In this document: one piece after another, positions 49,887-63,800 of the stretch | How positions within the stretch are numbered: position 1 is the stretch's first letter | How the letters are laid out: each line of letters opens with the position of its first letter | From: Nymphaea colorata | Taxonomy: Eukaryota > Streptophyta > Magnoliopsida > Nymphaeales > Nymphaeaceae | Assembly (NCBI RefSeq): GCF_008831285.2 | Contig: NC_045140.1 | Coordinates: 22,132,370-22,196,369 of the forward strand | Direction: 5' to 3' | Length of the DNA stretch: 64,000 nucleotides | The notes under the pieces: model-generated | The model's database searches: none | Told to the model about the DNA's origin: nothing | Seen by the model: only the letters and a program-made list of their open reading frames with translations | Program-made: the position numbers and the translations under genes

Positions 49887-50292
49887 TAGGGGTGAACAAT
49901 GAGTCGAGCTCCACTCGTTAAAACTCGGCTTGTGAACGAGTTTGAGGGAAGTAATTTGCTTAAGGAGTCAAGCTTGAGTTCATGAGTCGACTCGTTCAAA
50001 TAATCAAGTTGAGTTCGAGCTCAACACGTAACGGACGAGTCGAGCTCGAGCCTTAATCGAGTTTGTTGAGCTCGAGCTCAACATGTAATGATGAATATCA
50101 ATTCTATTCAAACGAATTTGTCGAACCTTAATCGAGTCGAGCTCGAGCTCAACACGTAACTGCCGAGTCGAGTTCGAGTTGCTTTTGTCAAGCAATTCTC
50201 GAGTTCGAGCTGAGTCGAGCTCGAGGTTTCATTAGGCGAGCCGAGTTCGAGCTGACTGAACTCGGGCTTGACTTGGTTCGTGTTCACCCCTA
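49887..50292. mobile_element. hAT-type MITE with GAGCTCGA arrays, 406 bp
   Basis: Terminal inverted repeats TAGGGGTGAACA at both ends, flanked by a perfect 8-bp target duplication GAATTGGG (49879-49886 and 50293-50300). An 8-bp duplication with TAGGGGTG-type ends fits the hAT superfamily. The interior is packed with GAGCTCGA / TCGAGTTCGAG words in both orientations and AACACGTAA repeats. No transposase, so non-autonomous. Very similar elements are familiar from many angiosperm genomes. Confidence 0.9.
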
Positions 50293-51888: not shown

Positions 51889-54800
51889 ATGGAGAGTGGG
51901 GGAGGATTGGTGACGTCGGCAGGGCACAGCTCCTCATCGTCCGTTCCGTCCTTGCAGTCTTCAAGGAAGGAATGGAAGGCCAACAACGACCATGCGCTTC
52001 GCGATTCTGGTGTCCAGGTAAATGGCGGAAGGGTTGGATACATCTCCTCGTTGCTTAGTGTTTCTTTATGTTTTTCTTTACAGGAAACTCCTTTGTTTTC
52101 CTTTTGAACGTCCGGCTTTACCCCACCGTTTTGGGTTATTTATGTTCCCTCGAATCTTGGGCAGGAGTTGGAAAGATCGAAGTTGAGCCAATCGGATGAG
52201 AAGACGATTTATGAGGTACGAATGACTGCTATTCAACTTATTTAACTTTGTAGCAGTTTGCATGTTTCATCTGTTATGCCCTCAGAATTTCGTTCAAGGT
52301 ATTCTTGCGTGAGTAACTCATGTCAGGTATTTTTCGTGAACCAATGAGAGGTTTCCAGCCCATGCCCTCTTTCCTGCGGACGCGTTTCCGTTGGCATCCT
52401 TTTTTTTTTTTTTTCAGTTGGTTGGATAAGAAAAAGACTAATTCAGTTTATATAAGTATCGTCTTGGAACGTAGTTTTTTGTATCTATATTGCTGCCTGC
52501 TGGATAGAAATTTTAACACTGGATTGTCTTCATTATTGGAGTTCCTTAACGTGGAGACTTTCTAGCGATTCTGGCTGATATGCTTAATTCTTATCATTGG
52601 TGTCACGCAAGGTGCAGCAAGGAACTGGGCCTCTGGATGTTGATTTTTGTTCGATTACTATAGATAATGGGGTGCACGATGATCCATTGCAGCAGAGACT
52701 TCGTGATGTCACCAGACAGAGAGAAGAACTGCAACAAATGGAAATTGAACTCAGGGCTCGGGTTATTGCTGGGACAGAAATTATGGAAACGCGCAAAAGT
52801 TTTGAGTCTCAACTCAAGGACCATGCTGAAGCCTATGCTAACCTGAAGGTGTGTACAATTTTCATGTTCCTATGTCATGGTTTATGTATTTAGTAAGCAA
52901 AGAAGTTGTGAGTCCAATATGTATCTCGTTCTTTTGTTGGCAGTCAGCAAGGCTTGTGTGTAGTCCATGTTTTGCCTCCAAACTACATATATATTGGCAT
53001 CCTAACTCCTATTGATGTATCGTTGGAGGTGCCTGTCTTTCTAAGGACATTTGGTGATTCCCAACAATAAATGCAACTAAAATGTAACATATGCACTCAA
53101 CCCAGCTACTATACGGAAGCTCATAGAGATTGATGACGGATGTTTGAGGATTGAAATGCTTTCAGAATTTGAGGTTTTCTTGTACGAGTTTAACAATCTT
53201 GCAGCATATTGAGAATCAGATGCTTTTTTTTAAAAAAAAAAAAAAAATTCTTGTGATACTAACCAGTTCTGGTAGATTGTACTATTTTTAGATGGTTTAC
53301 AAATCTCAAACATGTTTTGATTAACCGGTAGTCCTTTTACTATCTAAAGACGGTCTTTCCCATTTGTGTTAAGGGATTTTTAGTGGTGGTTCATATCGTT
53401 CTATGGTTTTTCTGAAACGAGAAAACTCAATCTTAGTGTTAGTGTTGGGTACTGAATATAATTTTCTTCCTCCTAGGGCAAGTTTGATTGCAGATATATT
53501 TGTATGGCACCTGTGCTCATTTTGCATATGTGGCAGCCATTTCCTTTGCCATTGATGGTTCAGGGTTATATATAGTTGCTTTTTCCTTTGTAGCTTTAAG
53601 TTAATGCTTCCTGGAAGCATTACCATGCTCATGGGTGTTTTGGGCCTTGTGGCCTGCTGAAAGCAGTTATTTCTTTTTTTGAGTTTGTATTTTATATTCT
53701 CCTGACTTAAATTACTCTTTATTTAAAAGGAGCAACTCCAAGAAAGAGAAGAATTCATTCGTGAGTTGGAGAAGAAGATGGAAGATATGGATAGAGAGCT
53801 TCGTGCAATTAAACTTGACAATGAAAAAGTTTGTTCAACAGCATTGCCTATTATTATTGTTTATGCTGGTTGTTTCCATGCTGAGTTTACATATACTTTC
53901 TCTTTAATGTGTTTCTGTTCTTCTAGGCATGGGCCAAGGAGGACCTTCTTAGGGAGCAAAATAAAGAGTTGGCGACCTTTAGGTATAGACCCTTGTTCCA
54001 TGAAGGTTTTTTCTGCCAGAGTATTAAGAAGCAATATTATTTCTCATTATAAGCATTCATCATAAGAGGATAACATGCTCCTGAAGTATTCTTAGTGATG
54101 GAAATGTGCTTTGACTTTTATAAGCAATAAATCAGCTAGAGAATAGCTGGTACTTTTATTCATAGCATTATTTATAGGGATAAGGAACTCTTTCATCCAG
54201 AAGTTATGCTCTTGAACTTGACTACTTTTTATCATTGCAGAAGAGAACGTGATAATTCTGATGCTGAAAGAGCCCAACATATTACACAAATACATGAGCT
54301 CAAAGCACATATCCAGGAAAAGGAAAGGCAGTTTCTTGAGTTGGAGGAACAGGTTTGGTTTTTGCTTTCCTGTTATTCTCTACCTCTACAATTTCAGAAA
54401 CTTTTATGTCAGTTGGTAATAATAAGTTTCAACACTGAGTAGCAGGGTATGAGAGGGCAAACCTATTGTTATTGTTGGTTGACATCGTCACAGCTACTAC
54501 TATGTGATATTGTCTGAGTTTTCTTGGATTGTAGGTAGAGGACATGAACTATGTGTCTTTTCTTTCTTTCATGCATATGGTGGCTTGTTTTATACCCAAA
54601 TTAAAGCATAGTTGCAAACATAGTCACAAATATCTTTTGGAGTTTTAAACGGCGAGGTTTTTCTCAAGTATAATACGACGAGCTTAAAAAAAATGGAAAA
54701 GGGGGTCAAGTATGGTAATTTAAAAAAAAAATTTAAAAAACTAAAAATTAGAAAAAAATAAAATAAATGTAAACTAATAAGACATCATTAAAAAAATAAG

Positions 54801-57800
54801 TAGATAAACAATATTTAATAATTGAAAAATGGAAACAAGTTGTCTGATTTGATAATACATAAATAAGGGCAAGTTCATAACTAGCAGTATATAGCTCTCA
54901 TGGCTTTACAATACAAATCAAGTCTTTATTTGCTTTAGAGAATAGATCAATTCTTAAACTTCATCGCATGAAGTAGAGTCATCTTCTTCACTTATTCTAT
55001 TACGTTCACATTCTTCATCACTTTTTTCTTTTCAATTTGAAGGCCAGTTATTCATCCTAGGCTCTAGTTTTTCTTCTTCAGGAAATGAATTCACATGGTC
55101 AATATAGCTTGGGTTTGCATTTATCTTCTTTATTTCTGCAGCTATGTTTTGTAAATGCATATTCATTCCAATGAATACCAAATCAATTGATCTGAATGGT
55201 AAATGATTGTTTCTCTTCTTCATGTTAGCAGCTTTAAATGCACTCCAATTCCTTTCACAAGTTGAGACACTGCATGACTAACTCAAAATATTAATTGCGA
55301 TGCTTTGATGTGTAGGAATAGAAGATCCAAATATCTCTCACAAAATACCTAACATAAATAAAAAATAGACAAAATTAAGAATTATATAGTTGTAAATCTG
55401 TAATTAAAATATTTAAGTTATTTGTCCAATCATCAAATTTTAACAAAAATGGGGGCACTTACAACACATGGATGTGCAGTGTCAATAACACTTATGGCTA
55501 ACCCATCACAAAAAGTAATATAGGATTTTTGTTGTGGTACTTGATAAATTCAAGATCCATTGTTGCATAATCCTCATGAGCAAGAAGCTTTTTTGTTATT
55601 AAGTCCAAACATTCTTTAACTTATTTATCCATGTTTACCATGTTATTATAAAACAAATGATGATTTAGATAAGTTTCTGCAACATATATGAGACAAATTA
55701 CAATTCCATGTCTTACCAATTATATTCTAGTATGACATATACTTTTCTTTTCTGTCTTCGCTTGCATTCCTGATAACTTATTTAGCCCTCTCAAGTGCTT
55801 TATATAAATAAACCGTAGTGGCCCATTCCCCATTAGCCTCTTCAGTACTCTCACTAATGGTTCAACAAATCTGATTATTTTCATTCCATTTTCTTAATCT
55901 CCATTTTGAATGAGATTTGTAACTTGTAAGTTATTTTCTATCGTTCTTTTCAGTTTTTTCTACATGCCTCCATTCATTGTAGGCAACCATAAACCTCATG
56001 TCCTCTTCTTGTTTAAAGATAGAATCCAAAAAAATTAATTGAGAGACAAATCTAGTGATACCAGGCCTTCTTAACTCCTTTCCCTTTGTATAAGTTTTCA
56101 TTATGTCAAAAACCTGTTGCTTATTGTATGTGAACTTGACATTTTCCCTTGCTTTGCTTATGATATTTGCTATGTCTTCTAAACAATCAATGTCTTCAAA
56201 GTTCAAACATTAAGTCAATGCATTGGCCAGCGTAAGATGTGGTAAAAATGTTTGGATCAATATTGTGAAAGGCGTAGCGTAATGTGTATCGGACGGGTCG
56301 ACCTATACACCTTATCGTAATGTATCACAAATGTAGTGTAGCATATCGTATTTTTTTTAATTTAAAAAATAATTAAAAAATCAGAAAATATAAACAAAAA
56401 AATCACAATTCATAACTTCAAAACATATAGTTATCATCTTTCATGATTTAACGATAATCCACGTCATTTGCATCATCATCTTCATTATCATCTTCATTTT
56501 TTTCATTAATTGCTTCTATCCCTTTTGTTGGAATGTCACCAACATTCCATTGCTCTCCAACCTCTCCTTCAAAAAGCTCTGCTGCTCCTTCAATGTTTAG
56601 AAAATCAAGATCGTCCTCATCAAGGATCGCAGATGGTTCTTCTTCAATCAATAATCTAATACATCAAAATTGTCAAGACTGATGGGATCAAACCGAGTGT
56701 GATGCTTCCTCGTAGATGCTGCTTCTATTTGCCTAAAGTGCTACAGAGTTTAACAAATTGTTAAAAATTAAAATATATATTAGAATTTGCAATTTTGCAT
56801 AACAAATTTATTTAATTTTGCCTCAACGTCATATTATAACGAACAAAAACAAGGTCATTCAACATTTTATTTTTCAGCCTATTTCTATTCTTATTGTAGA
56901 TGTTCTGAAATACACTTCAATTTCTTTCACAACCTGTTGCACTACATGTTTGGCTGAGGATTCTAATTGCATGCTTCTTTAATTATGGGCAATCAAGCCC
57001 AAACCTACTCCACTATAAATCTAATAACAGATGGAAAGTAACTATGAAATAGTAAATATATGACAAGGTAGAAACATCAAATAAAATAACAATAAAAAGT
57101 TAGGTCAGATAAAGTCCGTTTTTTCTAATACCTGGATGCGAGAATGTCCTGCATCAAATTGTTGCGTCTCTCCCCATGTTACCATAGCAAGTATCATATT
57201 TGTTGATCGACACGTGGACAACATTTTGTTCTCTATAATCACTTACCAATATCTCAATACAATCCAACATGCTATACTTGACCTCTTTGTCCTTCTCGAA
57301 AGTGGGAAGATAACTGATAGTAGGATTTAAGTAGTAGGTTGCTGCATGAAGTGGTGATGAAGTTGTCTAGACCACCTTTCATCTATAATCTTCCATATAG
57401 GCATGTACAACTTTTTTTCCTTTAGATTATCTCTAATGACTTCCTTTGTCCATAGGCTTGTATAAATATCCAATAGAAGGTCTATCTTCATTGTCAACCA
57501 ATCTGAGGACATTCACTAGAGGTACACAAACCTTCAATAAGTTCACATATGATTCTCAAAATTCAGTGTTGAATATAGTTTCCACAACTGTCGTGGCCTT
57601 TCTTTTATAGGCATGTCATAGGTGGATATGCAGCCCAATCATCACTTGAAAACATCTTTGCCTGAGAGGATTTCTTTGCTTGACTATACCCTGCACAGTC
57701 AAAACATTTATAGCAAACCATGTTTGGGTAGGTCGAATCAATTCAGCCCCATTTGTGAATTTTTTCATCAGGTTCAAGATATGAACATGATTATAAATAA

Positions 57801-60800
57801 ACTTTGTGATTTCTTGGCATCTTTGAACTGTCCACTTCATATCATCTCTTTCACCAAGATCCTGAAGCATTAGATTTAAACAATGAGCGACACATCAGCT
57901 CCAATAAAATGTCCCATATCGTGCTGCTAACATTTCACTTGCAGCTTTATAATTTGCTGCATTTTCTGTGATAAATTGCATGACATTTTCAGGCCCAACT
58001 TCTTGTATAACTTTATTTAAAGTCTCACACAAAACATCAACAGCCTTAGGAGCTATGTCACATGGGTGTAGGTGTGGGATGCGGCAAGTTCTAAAAAAAA
58101 TTCGGTGAGGGTGCGACGAGATCATATATATATATATATATGTATGTATGTATACATATATTATCTACATATATATGTTATTTGTTATATAAGTAATTTT
58201 ATTTGTATATATTTTAAACTTTTTTTTATCAAGGTTTCCTTGAATCGATATATCAATGAATACTTGGCTGAAAGATTTTTCAGAACGGCCAAAACACATT
58301 TGACTCCGTGTCGGGCCGCACAAGTACCAGCACCTGCACCAACGCAGGTGCAGGTGCGCCACCGTAGTTGGCGCACCCGTGTGACTTAGCTTAGGAGTAT
58401 AAAAAAAATTAATATTTTTTAAGAACATTGTACCTAAGGGGCAATATGCAAGGAAGTTTACTAATGTTTTGTTCTTGATGTTTGTCCACTCGTCAGCCGT
58501 TCCACTGCATTCTGTGTTTTTCCATCTCAATTTCAGTTCATCACAATTTGCCTTGACATCTCTAACTACATTATTATGAACTTTACCTCACAATTTATGA
58601 TAAGAGGGCATTTATACCCTTGACCTTCAGAAGCGATGACACCTGCTATAGGCTGGAAATGACGCATGGAAATGACAAAAGTGTGCTGCATTAGAGGGCA
58701 TGGATGCGTCATAGAACCACCTCTCTATTGTGTCATTTGCTGCGTCAATAATATCCTTTGAACACATGGCTGTACGAATCTCAGGTTGGCACTTGCAACA
58801 GTATAAATGGGAAAAAAAATTCTTGCTCGAGTCGGATCCAATACTCGACCTCAAAGTAGGTACTCTACCATCACTAGTTCAATAGTACGACCATGACTCC
58901 TGCCACATCTTCGTGAAATTGTACCTGCACCTTTTCTCTTTCTGGTTGCAGTTGAAGAGCCACCTCTATGCATGATGAGTTTCCCTTTATCTGTTCCCAA
59001 ATTGACACCAACATCTTTTTTGAGCTCAACATCTTACTTTTGCTTCCTTCCTCTTCATATGGGTCCCCATTTCCTACATCTAAGTCACACTGATGTTGCA
59101 TTTTTTACTAACGCACCAGCGTTGACGCGAGGCAGGTGCGGGTGAGACCCGGTTCACACCCAACCACAGTCAAGGAGAGTCGGGTGCGGTCAGCTGCACC
59201 CGACCGACCTTTTTTGTCATTTTTGAACTCGCACACTACTCGCGTTTGACGTGAGTCGGGTGCGGTCAAACCGTGTTATCAGTGTTGTATGTATTGTACG
59301 ATATGGGGCCGTATCGTACGATACGTGTCGCCGCGTTTCGGAAATGTGATACGATACACCACCTGTATCGTACACTTAAAATACAGGCACCGTATCGTGT
59401 GATACAGTTACGATACGTAACGATACAGTTACGTTACAATACAGTTACGATACGTTAAGTTTTACTGATTTTTTATGATTTTTTCAGAATTTTTTCTATT
59501 TTTATTATTATTATTATTTTAAAAATACGATACAGTTACGATACGTTACGATATTTTACGATACAACATATCTTAAAGCCAGACCGATACGGCTTACGAT
59601 ACTCTTTTTACAACATTGCGTGTCATGGACTTTTTTGTTCATTTTTTTATTTATTTTTATTTCTTTAAAAATGATTTAGGGCACTATCGTGCCCCTTCCC
59701 ACGGCATAGCTTCCCTTCCTGCGGCATAGCTTCTTCTTCCCGCAGCAGCCATTCCTGTCTTCTCCCTCTTGCATTGAAGCACCCACCTGTGACCAACGTT
59801 TGCATTTTCGATGGCTGGCGACTGAGCTTGTTCCTCCGTCGGCGACTATAACTAGACGGTCGGTCGGCAAGGGTGTTGTTCCTCCGACAGCAGAGCTTGC
59901 CAGATTTTTTCTGGCAGCTTTCTCTGGTTCTTCAAATCCCATCTTACAGTCCTTTTCTTTGTTTTATTAATCTCTTGTGCGTTGTATTGATTTCGTTTTC
60001 ACGTTCCTTTTTTCATTAGATGTTAGTTTAAAATTTTTAACGATTCTTCTTAGTTTGGTCTCTGCCGTCTGAATGAGTGAATGTTTCATTGATTGTTTTT
60101 ATTTGTTTTCTGTTTCTATTTTTTTGTTTCTGTCATCAAGACTCAGCCAGACAGCCACTCAAGGCTTATGAGTGCTGCAAAGCCTGCTATAATGCTAATT
60201 TTTCTGTTCTAACTGTTCTGTTTTAATTTTTGAACATTAAAATGATTAAATGAGTATTTTTTTTGCTGCAGCCTGCACTGACTTTTACTGTTTTACAGTT
60301 TTACTTGTTTAGCGTGTTCTTTTTACCTGTTTTGAATTTCCTCTTTAACCATGGCGTGAGTCATGACTGTGTGTAATGGGGAATGAGTGGGCAGTGAATA
60401 GAAAGGCTGAAGGGCTGGGGTGCAAGAAGGTTGATGCTCACGGCATCCATTGTTGCTCAGCCTCACAAGTATTACAGATCACAATATTTCTTGATTAGTG
60501 TTTTGATATTTTGATAATTTTGTGGTTTATAGATAATTTTTGTCATATATATATTATATATATATATATTATATATATATATATTATAATAATAAATTCA
60601 TAATAATAAAAAAATATCCTCGCCCCACCGTCGCACCAAAATTTTTTGAGATGTGCTGCTCCTGCACCGGCGCCGACAGCCCGCACCTATGTGACATAGT
60701 CCTACATTTGCCTCGTGCATTTCCTTTTCAATCCTATTTGCTTTCATGATATTAATAAGCTCCAAATGTTGGTGCTTGACATAACATGACAATGGGTTCT

Positions 60801-63800
60801 CTTGGACAGTGCATTGAGCCACATCGTTGTGTGTACCAGCTATATGGTGTTTTTAAAGCGAGAGATCTCTCCTGATATGATTTGCTTACAAAAATTACAC
60901 GTAACTTTTAACCTATCTTTGGGATCCACCCTCGTACACCACTACCATGCAGGGTTTGACATTATGTCTTCACAAAACAAGTAAAAACCTACGATTAACT
61001 GTTGGAAATAAGAGAAATGAACAATTCAACGGTGAAAATGAGTAATTTTTTACTTTCTTGTTGTTAAAAACCAGAAAACTCTTTCTCCAAGCTTCCCACT
61101 GTTTCCACTACGAGAAAGCTTCTTCACCGGCTAGTAGACTCTTCCAAATTAATGATTCCTCAGTGATTTTTGATGAAAATGAGCAAAGTGATTTTTGATG
61201 AAAATGAGCAAAATCTCTCTCCCACGTCTCTTGGAGTTTTTAGAAACAAGAAGAGAGAGAGCGGAGCGTTTAAAACTTGATGCAAAAAGGGGCCGTCAGG
61301 CCCCTTTTTTCCTTTTCCCCGCATCATACGATACGAGGGTGTATCGCCCGTTTCATACGATATGGTGAGTGTATCGACTGTGTATGATATGGTGATCGTA
61401 TCGACCGTATCGTACGATATAAGCAATACACTTACAATACAGGAGCGTATCATGTATCTAAGCATACCGTATAGGTTTATACGTGTGTGTATCGTATGAT
61501 ACAAAGAACATTGGTTTGGATATCTCCCTTCGAGAATATGTTTTTGCCCTTCTGAAATTGCTTCCATTATTTGTAACAATATTTACAACATTGTTTGCCC
61601 CAATTTCTTCTATAGCTGAAGATTAAAAGTCAACTATGATATAGCATTTTTAGGACCTTCTTCTACATGCTTTGCTTCCAAAATATGGTGCCCGTTGGAG
61701 AGATCATTGTGTCTTTCCAAATATCATACATAATTGTGCGTCCACACCATGGCTATGTTTTCTTCATTTCATCAACATATGATATGACATTTTCCTTTGC
61801 TTCATCTAGTAGTTTTTTCTTTGTTGTTTCACTGCTTGGGAGAATGTATCCTAGGTCAAAGTTTGTAGTAGCTGCAACAAACTTCTTGAAATCCACTAAT
61901 TGAAACAAATTGAAAGGTAAGTTGTTCATTACAATAGCTTTAAATGAGAGCTGGTCAACAAAATCTTTTTTTTTTGTTTTTTTTTCTCCTTACGTTTCTC
62001 TTATCGATCCTTCATGAGTGCTCAACGAAGTTTCTTGGAACATTAAGAAAATTTTCTGTGGGTTGATAGGCTTTCATGTTTTCGTATTCCTTCTCTTCCT
62101 TTCTTTCATTTCTTAAAACTTATCACATAAATTGTAATTTCTTTCTGGACAGGCTTATAAAGGATCGACTTTGCTGTCATTCTGTAATTCCTTTCATTGT
62201 TCCCTTGTTTTTGTTTTAAAGGATGACAACTTCATGTGTTTGTTGATTGAATACATTAGGCTTGGGTACTGGAACTTTACATTTTGAGTTGTTTTTCCTA
62301 GGTTTGTTCGATGAACATGAAATTTGCCTAACAAGTTCTCACTGTTACAGCAAAGGGTTGCCCAAGAAACAATCATGTACAAGGATGGCCAACTTAGAGA
62401 GGCACAAACTTGGATAGCCAGAGTCCAAGAAATGGATGCATTTCAGTTGACTGCCAATCACTCATTGCAAGCAGAACTTCGTGAACGTACTGATCAATAT
62501 AATCAGCTTTGGTTGGGTTGCCAAAGACAGGTTGATGTCTCCCTCTCTGATAATACCCTTTCCAGTAACCTTTTTTGCCATTTCCTCTCTCTTTATGTTG
62601 ATTGTTTAAGTGGCAGAACGTTAAGTTCAGTTTTCACTCAAAAAAATTAACTGTTTATTTTGTTAATGCTAGTTGGCAGATATGGAGAGGCATCACATGC
62701 AAACTGTACAGCAACTTCAAGCTGAATTGGCAGAGGCACGTGAACGGTGTGGTGTCTATAATGAAGATGTTTCAGTGGCAAGAGTTAATGAAAAAGATTC
62801 TTCTCATTATGTACAGAAGAAGGGCAACCAATTTGATGTGAAGGGTGGTGCTGGTTCTAGTTCTAACTCTATGGTTCTGCCAAATGGGAACACAGAAAGT
62901 TCACCGTCTTTTGCTTCAGCCACTAACATATCGCCCAAGGTAGGAAACATTAAATGCTTAGTAGTTAATAAATAGCTTTTATTTTGTTATAATCTTTCCA
63001 TTCTTGATGTTCAACTATTCTAAACTTTGTTTTTCTGTTCATTTTTCTCTATTTCTCTGTTTGTTGCATTAGTACTTGCCTGAAATTGTAGACATGCACC
63101 TTTGCATGTTCATTGACTTGTAGTTTGCGAGATAAGATGACATGGCTCTTAAACATTTGATAATCACATCATTCCTTCTGGAACCCAGAACATGGAAAGG
63201 GAAAATTCTAGCCCCCTCTTTTAACTTTGGATGTGCTCAATTACTGTTACTGATATTTGATTATTTGCACTCATGAAAGTGAGCATGTGAGAAGTCACTA
63301 AGAACATAACTGCATTACCTGGAGAAAATAATAATGGAATTTGATACTTTTTATTGCCATGAGGCCTGAAGCTTGTTCTATCTATGCCTAACTGATATAA
63401 TTCATCTTGTTAAAATTTCCCTTATCATCATTGTTATATGTCATTTATCAATCTTCTGTACTGCCAGAAAAGAAAATTCCTACATGTATTCAGTCTCCTA
63501 CACCAATATGTTTCTTGCTGCTGCTGGGATTTCTTTTTCTTTTTTATGTATATGGATTTTTCATACTTTGAACATATGGAACACATCTAGTGAGTCAATT
63601 AATTTGTCTGAAGTTGAAAAATGCATGATCTACACCTTTCATGGCTTTTGATTTTACTTTATTACATTTTGCAGCTTGATCATGCACCTGCAGTTACAGT
63701 TGTTCCATCATCTGTTTATGGCATGAATGCTTTTGTTCCACCTGGGCATGTTCCTCCTTTACATCCATACATAATGCACCAAAGTGGTATCCCACACGCG

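Follow-up and report, generated by a model that had tools for sequence, protein, structure and literature searches.

Within the window (the whole 64,000-nucleotide stretch analysed here, from Nymphaea colorata contig NC_045140.1, positions 22,132,370 to 22,196,369) lies a host gene whose exons 1–8 form a single continuous open frame with GT..AG boundaries at all introns, which bears out the first-pass annotation's placement of intron 6 at 54353–62350. This intron is 7,998 bp long, as against 98–881 bp for the remaining modelled introns (n = 7); a Pfam search with the host protein, which is coiled-coil-like, returned no match above cut-off. The intron contains the elements A, B and C and the MITEs M1 and M2, arranged as follows:

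54241–54352, plus strand: host exon 6 (open frame and splice sites)
54353–62350, plus strand: intron 6 of the host gene, GT..AG, 7,998 bp
54619–56257, minus strand: element B, left part, with the 3′ side of a broken transposase gene; left end CATAGTCACAAATA
56250–56257 and 61514–61521: target-site duplication (TSD) of A, GTTTGGAT on both sides
56258–61513, minus strand: element A, a hAT element with a broken transposase gene, 5,256 bp, defined by its TSD, Pfam matches and relatives with their own TSDs
58045–58052 and 58390–58397: TSD of M1, CTTAGGAG on both sides
58053–58389, no strand assigned: MITE M1, in A, 337 bp, ends CTATGTCACA / CTAAGTCACA
59072–59079 and 60700–60707: TSD of C, TCCTACAT on both sides
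59080–60699, no strand assigned: non-autonomous element C, in A, 1,620 bp, M1-type ends
59272–59279 and 59619–59626: TSD of M2, CGTGTTAT on the left and CGTGTCAT on the right, one mismatch
59280–59618, no strand assigned: MITE M2, in C, 339 bp, A-family ends CAGTGTTGTA / CAATGTTGTA
61514–61971, minus strand: element B, right part, with the gene's N-terminal side; breaks off in a T tract
62351–62530, plus strand: host exon 7 (open frame and splice sites)

Subtracting the transposons leaves 266 + 379 bp of intron 6, and subtracting the nested DNA leaves 3,283 bp of A. Intron 6 measures ~8 kb because cut-and-paste transposons inserted into one another, and the nest accounts for this length beside neighbouring introns of <0.9 kb.

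The four 8-bp duplications that had been proposed lie at exactly the claimed positions; three are perfect and the M2 pair differs at one base. The corresponding joins (56257/61522, 58052/58398, 59079/60708 and 59279/59627) are correct on a check against the sequence, such that an unaided reading of the raw letters had located four insertions to the base. At fixed ends, a perfect 8-bp flanking repeat is expected by chance with a probability of ~3e-5, given the local base composition. A strict search across the entire window for 8-bp repeats on either side of a 12-base inverted repeat (≥10/12 matched) gave three matches, M1 among them; A, C and M2, with inverted repeats that are shorter or have diverged further, do not reach this threshold. 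Given the repetitive nature of the sequence, an assembly error that joined unrelated repeats might be suspected; however, exact duplications at four junctions (that of M2 but for its one base) are not expected from misassembly, and the host exons stay in one frame on both sides, making such an error extremely improbable. Separately, upstream of the host gene, the 406 bp at 49887–50292 have a perfect 12-base inverted repeat, TAGGGGTGAACA, and a perfect 8-bp duplication, GAATTGGG; this is probably a further hAT-type MITE.

Element A had been called a hAT transposon, and its protein domains and 8-bp TSD establish this identity. Specifically, Pfam matches to DUF659 (E 3.9e-23 and 4.5e-16) and Dimer_Tnp_hAT (E 3.7e-11) are all over cut-off; a BED finger (zf-BED) falls below it, at 18.1 versus 20.6 bits. 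Full-length relatives with their own TSDs measure 3,300 bp (AATGTGCA), 3,329 bp (CTCTCAAT) and 3,492 bp (one mismatch), the duplications being perfect in L002 and L040 and one base off in L003; a further relative, L006, also shows a perfect TSD, although its right end could lie at either of two places. Two of nine other fetched A loci carry nested A-type inserts of their own with 8-bp duplications: L005 (AATCTAAT, 947 bp) and L006 (GTACCGGC, 1,143 bp). Two features of the window's copy emerge from the same comparisons and from its own letters. At 56402–56408 it lacks 160–590 bp that are present in the five relatives in which both sides were found (L001–L004 and L006), so that its left subterminal region has probably suffered a deletion; at 61162–61211 there is a perfect 25-base tandem duplication.

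The hAT identity proposed for element B also stands, through a DUF659 match over cut-off in one fragment (E 2.7e-9, 37.3 bits versus a cut-off of 34.7). A second fragment scores 20.7 bits with DUF659, under the cut-off, and the one C-terminal fragment tried gave no Dimer domain by Pfam. Over 63 nt in the region of this C-terminal fragment, A and B are 71% alike; the transposase genes of both are broken by stops and frame shifts. The left end of B is well defined, as the match to relatives begins at 54616–54623 in many copies whose flanks are unlike. On the right, the match ends near 61971–61984 in most of the alignments, and the relatives run ~0.9–1.1 kb further. Local alignment of 61972–62351 with three relatives detected no similarity (scores of 37, 31 and 39 versus shuffle maxima of 47, 42 and 48), and a search for a TSD of B yielded no convincing pair; with the right end missing, a truncated copy cannot show one. 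B is therefore a truncated relic, antisense to the host gene and without a duplication. The claim that intron 6 holds B is correct as to location and left end; B presumably landed there, and its entry into the intron, with a single end and no duplication to go by, is neither dated nor delimited. From B's position and age, rather than from a duplication, we infer that it was the first to hit the intron. Elsewhere, a B-family copy in L010 (431–3001) contains a 2,557-bp insert, possibly an LTR element, whose ends are of the TGTTAG type and whose borders carry a direct repeat around ACAAGTTGTT.

If the elements are real mobile units, they should recur in the genome with the same ends. We searched for each, scoring the best 40 candidates (of 800 for M1, 2,223 for C, 1,118 for M2, 890 for the left and 605 for the right part of A, and 1,934 for the left and 48 for the right part of B), so that the copy totals are lower bounds and include the window itself. 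Among the matches scored, the top identity to another copy was ~84% for M1, 85% for M2, 88% for the left part of A and 87% for C, and 76–80% for the pieces of B. Other copies of M1 and M2 match over precisely the proposed extents. Other copies of C reach its right end, and a few its left; the left end of A is reached in two copies and its right end in two of the matches listed. Paralogous copies with the proposed ends thus exist for A, C and both MITEs, and homologous sequence was not found to run across the claimed boundaries.

The strongest evidence for the nesting is that the disrupted sequences occur uninterrupted at other loci, where the target is present once. For each insertion, we joined the 100 bases on either side and compared the product with fetched loci. 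All 13 fetched B copies are continuous across the site of A; these represent ~9 independent copies, as L009/L041/L042 and L045–L047 look mutually duplicated. Among ten fetched A loci, the M1 site is empty in eight (L040 matches partially and the fetched piece of L050 is too short) and the C site in nine (L050 matches partially). The site of M2 in C is empty in four loci (L013, L014, L016 and L054), of which ~3 are independent, L016 and L054 having given identical alignments; L015, L033 and L052 match only partially. Beside this site L013 has 4 extra bases and L014 lacks 2. At the base that differs between the two copies of the M2 duplication, L013, L016 and L054 read ..GTCAT, with a C, and L014 also has C. 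Because the empty sites carry C here, the mismatch would most simply be explained if the left copy had changed afterwards. Duplications and empty paralogous sites together substantiate all four nestings: A in B, M1 and C in A, and M2 in C. The nest in intron 6 is therefore confirmed as real.

The first-pass annotation described all layers as hAT-type, and for M2 this holds, as its ends and subterminal sequence are those of the A family. The right half of M2 aligns with the left ends of A copies, for instance at 75.6% over 160 columns for L002 and at 76.9% over 173 columns for the insert of L005. The match to the left end of the window's own A is weak, at 71–78% over short pieces, and is clearer with other A-type elements. 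Of 19 M2 copies, 15 have a TSD mismatched at no more than one base, 10 of them perfect. M2 is thus a non-autonomous relative of A that resides inside C, itself inside A.

The superfamily of C and M1 is a more delicate matter. They have in common the inverted repeat CTAWGTCACA, and neither contains a recognised transposase. In the genome, a 19-base version of the motif is matched 501 times, versus 0 for a reversed control. With strict ends, 8/21 M1 copies have a TSD that differs at no more than one base (6 perfect), 4 have no recognisable ends and 9 have mismatched flanks; the shortfall is due in part to the copy set, which was not confined to full-length matches. One of four C copies has a perfect duplication (L014, AGTAAATC), and an 8-bp TSD is seen at three of six loci with C/M1-type ends.

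Ac-type hAT elements are expected to follow the target pattern nTnnnnAn. In the C/M1 duplications (6/14 of which were added by hand from the window, fetched copies and loci), T at position 2 and A at position 7 fill 15/28 places, against a shuffle mean of 8.7 (P 0.009); in the M2 duplications they fill 17/32, against 9.0 (P 0.002). The strongest positions, noticed post hoc, are T at 3 and A at 6, with T at position 3 in 10/14 M1/C and 12/16 M2 duplications. A passage in PMC3942097 distinguishes the Ac and Buster groups by target choice. From the 8-bp duplications and the target preference we infer that C and M1 are hAT members. They could instead belong to another superfamily that makes 8-bp duplications, as their inverted repeat is unlike either the CAATRTT of A or the CATAGTCACAAATA of B and no transposase could be tied to CTAWGTCACA ends; however, their duplications are similar in composition to those of the A-related M2, and we consider this alternative rather unlikely. 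The hAT label for C and M1 is thus favoured by duplications and target preference and is left incomplete by the divergent repeat and the lack of a transposase or partner among the candidates found.

Several of these candidates were considered and set aside. L039 has two facing M1-type repeats 3.4 kb apart with a gene between them, without a matching TSD, and the intervening open reading frames read like an ordinary WD-type (WD-repeat) gene. The loci retrieved for the C core, L051–L054, either are non-autonomous or have no paired ends. Comparison by eye of 100 listed places of the repeat, out of 501, with 150 Dimer_Tnp_hAT places gave no pair, both lists being incomplete. We also considered a captured host gene at 59906–60368 of C. 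This piece does occur apart from C, yet L017 and L018 are themselves elements that have these ends and are flanked by 8-bp duplications, so that the piece is a core common to related elements rather than a proven gene capture. The core is found in another element group (L017, L018 and L053), again with ends of the same kind and 8-bp duplications, a mosaic relationship between non-autonomous families. One could go further and read C and M1 as a large orphaned lineage with 8-bp TSDs and an unusual CTAWGTCACA repeat, its transposase lost here or belonging to an undescribed hAT branch, with A-type elements tending to land in A copies; we regard this combined reading as doubtful.

It had been asserted that nesting fixes the order of insertion. 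This is true of B, then A, then C, then M2; M1 and C followed A in either order, and M1 is not ordered against C or M2. Tip lengths, which are upper bounds on insertion age, are 0.135 for B, 0.090 for M1, 0.081 for M2, 0.073 for A and 0.068 for C, and taken alone would set M1 and M2 slightly above A. Outside CpG sites, the distances to the nearest relative are 0.181 for B, 0.110 for A, 0.104 for M2, 0.098 for M1 and 0.089 for C. By divergence B is clearly the oldest, and the values for A, C, M1 and M2 lie too near one another to give a ranking.

These results make it very probable that intron 6 holds a serial nest of class II transposons assembled in place. The hAT element B would have come to lie in the intron, antisense to the host gene, and later have lost its right end. 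A would then have inserted into B by cut-and-paste, and filling of the staggered 8-bp cut would have produced GTTTGGAT; M1 and the 1.6-kb C would have followed into A, and M2, with its A-family ends, into C. Transposases elsewhere in the genome may have mobilised M1, C and M2 in trans, and splicing would remove the whole nest. Because B has neither a duplication nor a right end, there is no date for its arrival, and the nest, or B plus A, might have been assembled elsewhere and then carried into the intron whole, through duplication or composite transposition. We think this very unlikely: a second B/A composite was not seen, the A site being empty in every fetched B copy (13/13), and the next match to the left part of B after the window is 76% identical, although with the best 40 of 1,934 candidates scored a copy could be missed. 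Assembly in place is thus the preferred reading, and in sum the earlier interpretation stands for the nested insertion and for A, B and M2 as hAT elements, and in part for the C/M1 label, the entry of B and the full order.

A literature search, which was not aimed at proving absence, found no paper about this locus. According to a passage in PMC10741241, nested organisation is very common in plants rich in repeats, and multiple layers are known. Since nesting is common in plants and 2/9 other A loci carry nested inserts, the nest is correct but ordinary: a neat case that shows no sign of function and leaves existing knowledge of transposons unchanged. Its value lies in the relative timing that it provides for DNA-transposon activity within a single plant gene.

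Comparison with known systems places each layer. hAT elements are given in PMC3942097 as 2.5–5 kb long with inverted repeats of 10–25 bp and 8-bp TSDs. A and B share the transposase domains of this superfamily (DUF659, with Dimer_Tnp_hAT in A), and A also its 8-bp TSD, short inverted repeats and, at ~3.3 kb, its full length; both copies, however, are broken. M2 resembles hAT-derived MITEs in its 339 bp, its lack of a gene, its many copies with 8-bp TSDs and the ends and ~160 bp of subterminal sequence that it has in common with A-family copies, and departs from them in its weak match to the window's own A. M1 and C are like other MITEs and non-autonomous elements with 8-bp TSDs in being short and numerous, with inverted repeats and no recognised transposase; in contrast, their repeat starts with CTA and no autonomous partner was found among the candidates. 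Finally, the intron 6 nest is like other plant nested transposon clusters in its multiple layers, readable by their duplications. Whereas LTR retrotransposons are stressed as hosts in the passage of PMC10741241, the layers here are DNA transposons within one intron.
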